This document shows, in pieces, positions 45,287 through 48,389 of a DNA stretch of 51,438 nt. Within the stretch, counting starts at the first letter, position 1, and the number at the start of each line of letters is the position of its first letter. The position numbers and the translations under genes are program-made. The notes beneath the pieces are model-generated. The model made no database searches, was not told where the DNA came from, and saw only the letters and a program-made list of their open reading frames with translations. The stretch lies in assembly GCA_027008645.1 (NCBI GenBank), contig JALVEE010000004.1, positions 1 to 51,438 on the forward strand, given 5' to 3'. The stretch is from Saprospiraceae bacterium (lineage in GTDB: Bacteria > Bacteroidota > Bacteroidia > Chitinophagales > Saprospiraceae).

Positions 45287-46741
45287 ATGATATTTAGGGT
45301 TTTAGTAATCTTGATACTGTTTGTAAATGCTTTAAAATCGCAAAATTTTTCTCAAAAGATTTTTCCCGGTGACCCAAAACAAGGAGCATATTTTGGTCGT
45401 TTTGTTGCACAAAATGATGACTATATGGTCATTAGTGCTTATAAAGATTTCGGAAAAGCTAGTTCTTCCGGTTCTCTATATTTCTTTCAAAACAAAAACG
45501 GACAATATACCCAAACTCAAAAGATTTTCCCCGAAGATGGAACAGTAGAACAGTTTTTTGGTTATTCAATCGGTATAAATAACGATTGGATAATAACCGG
45601 TGCTCACCACGATAGCAGTAAAGGAGCAAGTAGTGGAGCGGCATATATTCTGAAAAATGTAAATACAAATGAGTGGCGTATTAGCCAAAAATTAGTTCCT
45701 GATGACCTCTCTGAAGCTGATGAATTTGGTAAAAAAGTTGATTTATACGGACAATTTGCGGTTTCTTCTAGCTATCTTGATGATGATTTTGGAATTAATA
45801 GCGGCTCTGTTTATATTTTTAAATTAGATAGTAGCGGATATTGGCATAAATTTTCTAAAATATATGCATCTACACCAGCAAAATATTCACAATTTGGTTT
45901 GTCTGTAGATTTATTCAAAGATAAATTGATAGCCGGAGCACCTTTTGAAGGCGATAAGGAATTTGGCTCAGCTTATATTTTTGAATTTATCAATAATAAA
46001 TGGATAGAGACAGCCAAATTGATGCCTGAGGGTTTGAATGAGTTTGATCAATTTGGAATTACTGTCAAAATCAATGAGGATTTTGCATTTGTTTCAAGTA
46101 TAAAAGACGACGATTTAGGTGAAAATAGCGGAGCTGTATATGTATTCAAAAAGAGACAAACAGGATGGAAATATTCTCAAAAGCTTAAAGCACCGGATGG
46201 AGCAAAAGGAGATGGCTTTGGTATAGATATTGAACTTTCGGACTCTATAGCTATCATTGGTTCTTATTTCGATGATGATAAGGGACAAAATAGCGGCTCT
46301 ATTTATTTTTTTCAATTAAAGAATAACAAATGGAGTTTTCAAAAAAAAATAACAGCTGATGATGGAGAAGAAAGCGACGCATTTGGTTCCAGCATTTCTT
46401 TGAAAGGAGATAATCTATTGGTAGGTGCGTATTCAGATAGTGACGAAGGATTTTTAGCCGGTTCTGCATATGTATTCTCACTAAAAAAAACATTGAATAC
46501 AAAAATAATAACCGGAAGAACAAGAGTTTTTCCAAGTATAGTATATAATCTACTAACTATAGAAAGCAATTACAGTAAGTACCAAATAAAGATTTACGAT
46601 ATTAAGGGAAGAATTTATAAAAATATATTTTCAAACAAAAACAATATCATTTTTTCGGTAGAAGAGCTGCCAAAAGGTCTTTATTTTATCTCGTTAGAAT
46701 CAAAAAAACACCATGAAACCTTTAAAATAGTAAAATTTTAA
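45287..46741 (+). CDS. Secreted seven-repeat FG-GAP-like propeller protein with T9SS sorting domain
   Basis: A 484-aa protein. The N-terminus MIFRVLVILILFVNALKSQ is a signal peptide. Seven repeats of about 55 residues then follow, each with an FG strand and a loop of the form DDxGxxSGSVYIF (for example DDDFGINSGSVYIF, DDDLGENSGAVYVF and DDDKGQNSGSIYFF). Seven repeats are what a seven-bladed beta-propeller needs, and the acidic loops resemble FG-GAP calcium sites. A type IX sorting domain closes the protein (KIYDIKGRIYKNI...GLYFISLESKKHHETFKIV). It is probably exposed on the surface or released. It is coupled to the HTH gene upstream. The ligand is unknown. Confidence 0.82.
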   Translation: MIFRVLVILILFVNALKSQNFSQKIFPGDPKQGAYFGRFVAQNDDYMVISAYKDFGKASSSGSLYFFQNKNGQYTQTQKIFPEDGTVEQFFGYSIGINNDWIITGAHHDSSKGASSGAAYILKNVNTNEWRISQKLVPDDLSEADEFGKKVDLYGQFAVSSSYLDDDFGINSGSVYIFKLDSSGYWHKFSKIYASTPAKYSQFGLSVDLFKDKLIAGAPFEGDKEFGSAYIFEFINNKWIETAKLMPEGLNEFDQFGITVKINEDFAFVSSIKDDDLGENSGAVYVFKKRQTGWKYSQKLKAPDGAKGDGFGIDIELSDSIAIIGSYFDDDKGQNSGSIYFFQLKNNKWSFQKKITADDGEESDAFGSSISLKGDNLLVGAYSDSDEGFLAGSAYVFSLKKTLNTKIITGRTRVFPSIVYNLLTIESNYSKYQIKIYDIKGRIYKNIFSNKNNIIFSVEELPKGLYFISLESKKHHETFKIVKF

Positions 46742-46920
46742 GGAAAGGGCGGGCTGGGGAGTGTGGTCGAGCTAGGAGCTTTGGTTGTCTAGCAGGATGG
46801 TTCAGGGGTATGTGAGAGTAGTTGAGCCAAGAGGTCGGAGACACTTTGGCTCAGGATAGGAGTGTCTTTTTCTGGACGGTGTTGCCTACTTTGAGTTGAT
46901 GCCATTGTAGGATTAACGGG
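46742..46920. other. GC-rich, G-skewed island with competing hairpins; possible ncRNA
   Basis: About 52 percent G+C by my count over 46741-46920 (about 60 percent in the first 60 bases), against an AT-rich background, with far more G than C on the plus strand. TGAGCCAA (46823-46830) pairs with TTGGCTCA (46846-46853). GACACT (46840-46845) can instead pair with AGTGTC (46861-46866), which runs into TTTTT: a terminator-like stem excluding the first one. A 38-codon minus-strand ORF (46905 down to 46789) has no known relatives that I can name. No known RNA family was recognised. Confidence 0.45.
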
Positions 46921-46973
46921 TATAATATTTTTGCAATATCCAAAATTATTCCAACCAAATGCAATAGTTTTTC

Positions 46974-48389
46974 TCAGTATTTTACTACAAAATTCAATAT
47001 ACCCCCACCGGAATAATTGGTAGTTGGTTCAGCACAATAACTTAATGGGCTATTTCCATAAAGAAAAATTGATGTTGCAATCACAGGTTTAGGAAAAATT
47101 ATTCTATCAATAGAAGTAAATACATTAACCAAATCCTCTTGTTTCAATTCCATTATTGACAAATTGTATCTCGAATCTCCTTGCCATCCTTTCTCAATCA
47201 AGTGATTCAATACAATTTCCATACCTTTAAATTTATTGGAATTATAATCAATATTATTTATTGTCATAAGATTGACTTCTCCAATATCTTCATAGTCATT
47301 TTTTTCCAGTTTATATTTTATATCGAGGTTTCTATTAACAAATTCAACCTTTCTAAATCCTGCAAGGCTATATTCATCAACTATTTTAACCGGAATACCG
47401 GCATTATTTGGAATAGAGATAAAATAAAGCAATGAATAATTTTCTTCAAATAATATTGAGCCCTTTTGATCACTATCAATAATTATAGGTGTCATTAATT
47501 TGATTTTTTCCAATACATTATTTATGCTGTCTTTGGGGAGGCAATCTCTTTTGCAAATTTCGTTGCAGTTTGAAAAATCTCCAAATTGAAATGATGACGG
47601 TTCATAAGTCGTTTTATAAGCATCGAAAATATCTCTTTTTTTAATAAATACAAACTTATTATCCATACTATATGATACTCCTGATTGAATAATATGAGCT
47701 TCTAAATCAGTCCACACTTTTTCAACTTGATTAATAATATTGCCTATCTGAATATTTTTTTCATTTTGTTTAGTCAATTTATTGTATAAAATATAATCCT
47801 CACTATATTTTATAACAAGACTAAAATATTTAGGAATTTTATGCTGGGAAAACACCGCTTGATACCCTGAAAAGTGATAAGCGTAAAAAGCTTTAAAATT
47901 GTTTTCATCTTGTAAATCAACCGGTGTTTTTGCCAAAACCATTGGTGCGTACTTCTGTGTTTCCCAATTAAAATCATAGAAAATATCAGGAATTTTAATC
48001 GCCACCAGAGGATCTTCTACCAATACTTTTCCGATAAATTCAGAACCATACAGATCCTTTATTTCTTTATCTGCCGCTTCCTCAACAACAGTTTCCAAAG
48101 TTTTATTTCCTACCGCTTTTTCATCTTTATGAATAGCAAATAATATTTCATTAAAATATTTACCGGAATTTTTGCGTGAAACCCTATTGATATAATCTCT
48201 GAATTCAACATCTTCCAAAGCATTAGCTACAGCTTTTGCAAACGCCAGTCTCAATTGGGTTTTTTCTTTTATTTCTTCCGGAACATCTGAAGTAAGATCT
48301 GAAATTGATTTGGATTGAAAGGGAATAGGATCTTTATGACACGAAATCAATGTTAGAATAAGTAATAAATATAAATATTTCATTTTCAT
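46974..48389 (-). CDS. Hypothetical lipoprotein
   Basis: A 471-aa protein not recognised. The N-terminus MKMKYLYLLLILTLISCHKD is a lipoprotein signal with Cys17 (ISC). A second ATG two codons in is equally usable. The sequence is mixed alpha/beta. One segment has a cysteine cluster (FSNCNEICKRDCLPKD) that could form disulfides or bind metal. A late region (EVNLMTINNIDYNSNKFKGM) is beta-rich. It is the last gene of a four-gene minus-strand group, 80 bp after the Kazal protein gene, and convergent with the propeller gene. The function is unknown. Confidence 0.65.
   Translation of the reverse strand: MKMKYLYLLLILTLISCHKDPIPFQSKSISDLTSDVPEEIKEKTQLRLAFAKAVANALEDVEFRDYINRVSRKNSGKYFNEILFAIHKDEKAVGNKTLETVVEEAADKEIKDLYGSEFIGKVLVEDPLVAIKIPDIFYDFNWETQKYAPMVLAKTPVDLQDENNFKAFYAYHFSGYQAVFSQHKIPKYFSLVIKYSEDYILYNKLTKQNEKNIQIGNIINQVEKVWTDLEAHIIQSGVSYSMDNKFVFIKKRDIFDAYKTTYEPSSFQFGDFSNCNEICKRDCLPKDSINNVLEKIKLMTPIIIDSDQKGSILFEENYSLLYFISIPNNAGIPVKIVDEYSLAGFRKVEFVNRNLDIKYKLEKNDYEDIGEVNLMTINNIDYNSNKFKGMEIVLNHLIEKGWQGDSRYNLSIMELKQEDLVNVFTSIDRIIFPKPVIATSIFLYGNSPLSYCAEPTTNYSGGGILNFVVKY

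Follow-up and report, generated by a model that had tools for sequence, protein, structure and literature searches.

A GC-rich hairpin island in an AT-rich Saprospiraceae genome is very probably a cluster of untagged REP repeats, probably spread by a RAYT

Introduction

Why does an AT-rich Saprospiraceae genome carry, directly behind a protein-coding gene, a short island that is rich in G+C, skewed toward G on one strand and equipped with two hairpins that share bases? The island lies at positions 46742-46920 of the window, i.e. the whole stretch of 51,438 nt analysed here. A sequence-only reading had proposed three explanations, namely a small RNA, an attenuator-like 3′ UTR of the upstream propeller gene, or a foreign insert, and had named a covariance search (Rfam), an alignment of homologues and a comparison with an empty locus as suitable checks. 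We argue below that the island is very probably a BIME-like REP cluster of the mobile type, probably spread by a REP-associated tyrosine transposase (RAYT). This reading rests on a dispersed repeat family, on inverted pairs of its units between genes, on a covarying stem, and on a RAYT gene with arrays of the same repeats in a closely related genome, designated G002.

Results

The approximately 180 bp at about 52% G+C described by the sequence-only reading were borne out by measurement: G+C amounts to 0.525 for 46742-46920 against a mean of 0.323 for the window, in which no other 179-nt stretch attains this value. The G-C skew is +0.489 (70 G, 24 C), and 0.5% of windows have an absolute skew as high. 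Both stems that had been pointed out, with bases 46840-46845 in common, exist as well. The first is exact, with TGAGCCAA (46823-46830) pairing with TTGGCTCA (46846-46853), and the 34-nt piece that contains it folds with z between -4.5 and -5.0 on both strands, as DNA and as RNA (equalled by 0/200 dinucleotide shuffles). The second stem pairs GACACT (46840-46845) with AGTGTC (46861-46866) and is followed by TTTTT, but only the first stem is exceptional when compared to shuffled sequence, the second-stem fold having a z of -1.6 with 13/200 shuffles equally good. Over the full 179 nt, folding of the plus strand is no better than that of shuffles (z -0.67, 46/200 equal) and that of the minus strand somewhat above them (z -2.06, 6/200). 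The parts of the island and its two flanking genes are as follows.

45287..46741, plus strand: FG-GAP_2 repeat protein of 484 aa with a T9SS sorting tail; its stop codon adjoins the island (family search)
46742..46920, no strand: the island, a probable REP cluster with a single intact unit and degenerate ones of the same family (G+C maximum, skew, blast copies in the own genome, orthologous island in G002)
46769..46806, plus strand: degenerate long-form unit GAGCTAG...CTAGCAGGATGGTTCAGG, oriented as the intact unit (by-eye assignment, less firm than that of the intact unit)
46822..46855, plus strand: intact REP unit TTGAGCCAAGAGGTCGGAGACACTTTGGCTCAGG with outer stem, bulges, inner stem GTC/GAC and loop GGA (match to covariance model R1; DNA hairpin z -4.65)
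46840..46871, plus strand: alternative stem GACACT/AGTGTC with T5, i.e. the second hairpin, private to the window copy (1/47 distinct copies)
46893..46919, minus strand: degenerate inverted unit GAGTTGATGCCATTGTAGGATTAACGG, counterpart of GAGTTGATCTCGCTACAGCGGGATTAACATCTCAACGA in the G002 island (assigned by eye)
46974..48389, minus strand: convergent gene of 471 aa, without a Pfam or NCBIfam match at E 0.01 (family search)

The degenerate long-form unit is also found in the G002 orthologue of the island, resembles the long form CACCAAGAGGTC..CAGGATGGCTCAG of locus L149, and lies with its 3′ end inside a blast match to a copy on contig C219 (query 57-125, corresponding to 46791-46859; 83%). 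From the end of the island to the 3′ end of the convergent gene there are 53 bp.

The island recurs as a dispersed repeat. Used as a blastn query against its own genome (4.09 Mb in 366 contigs), it matched 23 places at E<0.1 beyond the window copy, nearly all across the same core. Among them, contig C43 carries four tandem copies with a 48-bp period and contig C100 a cluster of five copies, one of them partial. The C43 copies lack the unique spacers of a CRISPR array, the sequences separating the four copies being almost identical. We then scanned 60 genomes, the own genome included, with a covariance model (R1) built from 19 copies, applying Infernal's stricter filters to the relatives. R1 matched 37 times in the own genome, 76 times in G002, eight times in the congener G004 and once in G013, with no match in the remaining 56 of the 60 genomes. 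The window copy (46824-46857) obtained 59.2 bits, the top score of the own genome, being itself among the 19 rows from which the model was built. Six of the eight G004 matches score about 21-22 bits; five of these (L064, L066, L068, L070, L072) belong to a related family with AAGC/CGCT arms, and L062 has another arm pair. The single match in G013 is weak and spans 25 nt, and an exact-match search of viral contigs for the core pattern returned none. The repeat is thus a short palindrome, within the 20-40 bp typical of REPs, in many dispersed copies, and the family appears limited to one Saprospiraceae genus as far as searched. Two further palindrome families with a similar core occur in the own genome, represented by AAGCGAGGTCAGAGACACTCGCTTATCAGG and CTCGCCAAGAGGTCGGGAGACCTTTGGCTTGG (L138, L139, L143-L147 and L140-L142, respectively).

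The repeat unit is a palindrome of ~32 nt, composed of a core, (G)AGGTY-RRA-RAC(R)CT, with a bulged G and a 4-bp outer stem. We characterized this stem in 113 distinct copies chosen on the core alone, with no requirement for stem or foot, a sample that leans to the studied family because the loci were mostly fetched for matching R1. All four outer-stem positions are Watson-Crick pairs in 77/113 copies even though the arms differ, the pairs including CCAA/TTGG, ATAA/TTAT, CTAA/TTAG, TTGA/TCAA and ACCA/TGGT. Across the 21 distinct arm pairs, 52/84 positions are Watson-Crick, whereas 10,000 shuffles gave 32.9 on average and never more than 47. The count of 52 is lowered by the inclusion of the AAGC/CGCT copies, which form a sister family with the stem in a different register. 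By this comparison of copies, the outer stem covaries, with at least five arm pairs. In the narrow 19-row alignment, covariation is little above chance (one pair changed on both sides; 41/500 shuffles as high), which says little since the stem hardly varies there. The 5′ foot is TTCG in 47/113 copies and TGAG in 13/113, the window copy among the latter, where TGAG extends the stem; the 3′ foot is CTCA in 72/113. These feet, counted over the 113 copies, hold no unpaired GTAG or CGTC end tag. A second subtype (e.g. TGAGATAAAGGTTTCTAACCTCTTATCGAA) stands inverted behind the first at many places, and inverted pairs of the BIME/REPIN type accordingly characterize many clusters, though not all.

With the family in hand, the second hairpin can be judged by its conservation. 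Its arm AGTGTC occurs in 1/47 distinct copies having 60 nt of downstream sequence, namely in the window copy, and is missing from the G002 orthologue; a conserved alternative stem followed by a T run, by which an attenuator or intrinsic terminator would be recognized, is therefore lacking among these copies. Given this count, the second hairpin with its T5 is probably a chance product rather than a conserved switch. That the locus encodes an attenuator or small RNA operating by a switch between mutually exclusive hairpins, both of which can indeed form and which have six bases in common, strikes us as extremely improbable: besides the solitary second arm and a fold within the range of shuffles, the covariance search of the island against Rfam 15 yielded nothing at gathering scores, and the element recurs at other genes. 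The attenuator proposal for the propeller gene fares no better, as the hairpin stands beside many other genes. The alignment of homologues divides the two stems, the first hairpin being identical in G002, with a covarying outer stem, and the second arm unconserved.

We determined where the copies sit relative to genes, defined here as ORFs of at least 100 aa rather than curated genes, in 29 clusters. These stem from loci fetched from the own genome and from G002, taken together, and include the window cluster as well as the orthologous one of G002; clusters less than 700 nt from the end of a locus were set aside before counting, as were L001, a duplicate locus, and contexts that recurred. Fourteen clusters occupy convergent gaps, 12 lie between co-directional genes, one is in a divergent gap and two lie over short ORFs (frames about 105 and 119 aa long). 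Thus, 27/29 are outside such ORFs, with the extragenic, convergent or unidirectional placement expected of REPs. In the 12 co-directional clusters, units run with the gene direction in six and against it in four, and two clusters have no unit that fits the pattern. With units in either orientation and an empty Rfam search, the small RNA suggested by the sequence-only reading finds no support.

Placement of this sort raises the question of whether it is chiefly as bidirectional terminators or as protectors of mRNA 3′ ends that the repeats persist, mobility being incidental. The preference of the copies for gene 3′ ends and for convergent gaps is in line with such a role, as is an RNA hairpin that is stable on both strands (about -15 kcal/mol), and the role would be compatible with REP identity rather than exclusive of it. 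However, T5 follows within 35 nt in just 10/47 copies, a terminator scan of 46600-47050 returned zero sites (with a loop limit of 8, which confines it to short loops and leaves out the second stem), the island is lacking beside the same gene in three congeners, and avoidance of 5′ regions would yield an equal bias. We therefore consider it unlikely that termination or mRNA protection is what chiefly maintains the repeats.

The history of the locus was traced by means of the FG-GAP_2 protein, which is 91% identical in G002 and 60, 53 and 51% identical in the other three congeners; as judged by this flanking protein, G002 is the closest. It has an orthologous island 3′ of the same gene, in which the 34-nt intact unit is identical to that of the window and its surroundings differ by indels. 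An inverted unit of the G002 island survives in the window as no more than a T-rich remnant, in our reading the source of the T5. In G001, G003 and G004, R1 finds no copy beside the same gene. In G003 and G004, its stop codon and the end of a convergent gene overlap; the next gene downstream in G001 is GroEL-like (named by eye). Because the downstream genes are others, we regard these sites as neighbourhoods free of the element, not as empty sites in the strict sense. The empty-locus comparison thus came out as an island common to the window and G002 and absent from the three other congeners. The gene for the 471-aa protein is missing from the orthologous locus in G002; the protein has no relative in the genome_contigs search, and among the six genomes searched its relatives are confined to one other G002 contig (best identity 35%). 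A second locus differs between the two genomes, in that the own genome has a unit on contig C251 that directly adjoins the stop codon of a gene resembling helicases (named by eye), where G002 has none. At this position in G002, a short Y1 transposase gene (L083:1387-1764, contig C107) follows the helicase-like gene, its match covering positions 4-87 of the 121-position Y1 profile. Among the original proposals, the foreign insert came nearest, in so far as the island is a mobile-type repeat cluster that three of four congeners lack next to this gene, so that the sequence-only interpretation as a whole is partly supported.

A candidate for the enzyme was identified in G002 with the model NF047646 (REP-associated tyrosine transposase), and a RAYT adjoining the studied family came to light only with this more specific model. 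It matches C637:2-241 (E 1.6e-6), where the start of the contig encodes the last 80 aa of a RAYT including the motif YIHNNP; this fragment has no Pfam Y1_Tnp match, and in the five genomes searched no gene reaches the curated RAYT cut-off of 80 bits. The stop codon precedes by 25 nt an array of the studied family (five R1 matches), which is followed by creD. The start of another contig, C487, carries on the other strand an HTH_34 gene, an array with four strong copies and inverted partners, and a 42-residue ORF that runs off the contig and likely represents the N-terminus of the same RAYT. Alone, the 42-aa piece has no family match, but relatives have single ORFs to which the two pieces align in the expected order (e.g. 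L188, 31-64 and 139-200; L186, 7-41 and 103-156). The N-terminal matches are weak: the best has E 2e-4 and three are under E 0.05, values obtained from a small database without composition correction. From synteny, the two contig ends probably adjoin in G002: in the own genome, 285 bp separate the HTH_34 (94%) and CreD (90%) genes, and a small array occupies this interval. Hence, on contigs joined by synteny, G002 would harbour a RAYT flanked by the same repeats, the arrangement known as a REPtron, with its middle part, including the HUH motif, in the contig gap. Seven of the eight homologous ORFs of relatives listed have the motif NH[IV]H, and matches to the RAYT fragment occur in 28/60 genomes of the relatives search, G002 included.

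The own genome has no match to the G002 RAYT, whether between HTH_34 and creD or elsewhere. Judging from the neighbourhood, the G002 RAYT probably mobilises the studied repeats, and we infer that the gene was lost from the own genome rather than never there. The copies in the own genome are now probably immobile, because the array remains there without a RAYT gene.

Other transposases were considered as movers and set aside. The three Y1 transposases of the own genome are not flanked by the studied family, two of them having repeats of their own, and the Y1_Tnp and L011-like genes of four congeners (in one search also of G013) have other repeats, or none that we noticed. No convincing copy was found in the fetched flanks of other Y1/RAYT loci (1.5 kb at most, and shorter where a contig ended): in three locus sets that partly share genes, 14/15 loci were without a match, 0/8 matched, and outside the window only L087 did so in the third set, at chance level (E 0.97, 11 nt). 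These scans bear on the idea that the repeats are miniature inverted-repeat elements (MITE-like) of another transposase, next to a RAYT by coincidence. A palindromic, dispersed and genus-specific element would suit this idea, yet the RAYT has arrays on either side, the closest of them at the 25-nt distance given above, the other Y1/RAYT loci lack convincing copies, and several RAYT relatives are adjoined by repeated palindromes of their own. An origin from a different transposase is thus very unlikely, and spread by the RAYT remains our preferred reading.

Repeated palindromes beside other transposase genes were noted in their own right. In the own genome, the RAYT-like gene L011 (C101:792-1445; NHFH and YIHHNP) has on its flanks a repeat of its own, 36 nt long and of the TTCGGAATCTCTTCGAGCTTCCGAGTCTTGG type, in 14 copies that are at least 60% alike. 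IS200-like TnpA genes adjoined by repeated palindromes are L009 (own genome, C102), L082 and L077 (both G001) and L081 (G004); the L082 palindrome is AAGTCCCATTAGGGACGACATTATGGTAG, and the spacing is tandem with a 50-56 bp period in L081 and L082 and irregular in L077. The L009 TnpA has a motif of subclass 1.2 (YIKKQEEHH type), for which Table 1 of PMC6006769 lists no REP.

Loop sequences beside RAYT-type genes raise a tentative further possibility, namely that the RAYTs of this clade might rely on an apical purine-A loop (RRA/RRRA, closed by GTC/GAC, GTG/CAC etc.) instead of a GTAG foot to recognise their REPs. Repeated hairpins are present in 17/31 stretches beside such genes, and purine-A loops make up the majority of them in 9/17 stretches, the studied family being one, with 8/17 not fitting. 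Within the same stretches, RRA/RRRA loops are found in 39/67 repeated versus 24/137 unrepeated hairpins. For these counts, the motif was selected with the hairpins already in view, copies in one stretch are not independent of each other, and a G+C filter removed L199. Near RAYT relatives of the family and order (L175-L201), purine-A loops are exemplified by GGTTCGTGAGACACGAACC and GGCGAGGACGCC.

Discussion

Taken at the strength given above, mobile repeats rather than a regulatory RNA account for an odd GC-rich, G-skewed hairpin island in an AT-rich genome. When single-stranded, for instance on the lagging-strand template, a unit would fold; the RAYT, an HUH/Y1 nuclease, would recognise the folded unit, cut it and rejoin it via its tyrosine. 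This mode of recognition and of cutting and joining is that established for RAYTs and IS200/IS605 enzymes. Single units or inverted pairs would be carried to intergenic sites, and selection would leave copies mostly at gene 3′ ends. The pair of genomes, one with array and transposase and the other with the array alone, offers a system for studying RAYT loss and the fate of orphaned repeats.

In REPINs, an inverted pair of units is the mobile unit, and inverted unit pairs are likewise seen here. The REPINs of PMC3116915 are those of Pseudomonas, and the present family differs in that it also comes in tandem copies. GTAG- and CGTC-tagged REPs, as portrayed in the portions of PMC3733652 consulted, are dispersed intergenic palindromes of 20-40 bp that prefer convergent and unidirectional gaps, form inverted dimers and sometimes abut a stop codon; the repeats described here share their size, dispersal, intergenic position, preferred types of gap, inverted dimers and occasional contact with a stop codon, and differ in the missing tag, their commonest feet being TTCG or TGAG and CTCA.

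Untagged REPs of Bacteroidetes are mentioned and hardly described in the excerpts of PMC6006769, which name no family from the present genus and also mention the nuclease activity of the E. coli TnpA-REP. According to these, the TnpA-REP proteins of subclass 2.6 (RAYT group 5), from Bacteroidetes, are flanked by atypical structures without a GT[AG]G tag and carry the HUH motif NH[LIV]H and the tyrosine motif YIH[QN]NP. The G002 RAYT resembles them in its YIHNNP and in its untagged flanking palindromes with copies elsewhere in the genome; it differs in that its own HUH motif falls in the contig gap, NH[IV]H being known from the ORFs of relatives. As YIHNNP also suits subclass 2.4 (YIxNNP; same excerpts), the assignment to subclass 2.6 appears to fit best, with subclass 2.4 possible too because the HUH region lies in that gap. 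In the literature searched, a limited collection, no paper on REPs from Saprospiraceae came to light, as judged by titles and the openings of abstracts. With short palindromes in many dispersed copies, extragenic placement, inverted pairs and, in G002, a neighbouring RAYT, the family described here is an untagged REP family of the known REP/BIME kind.
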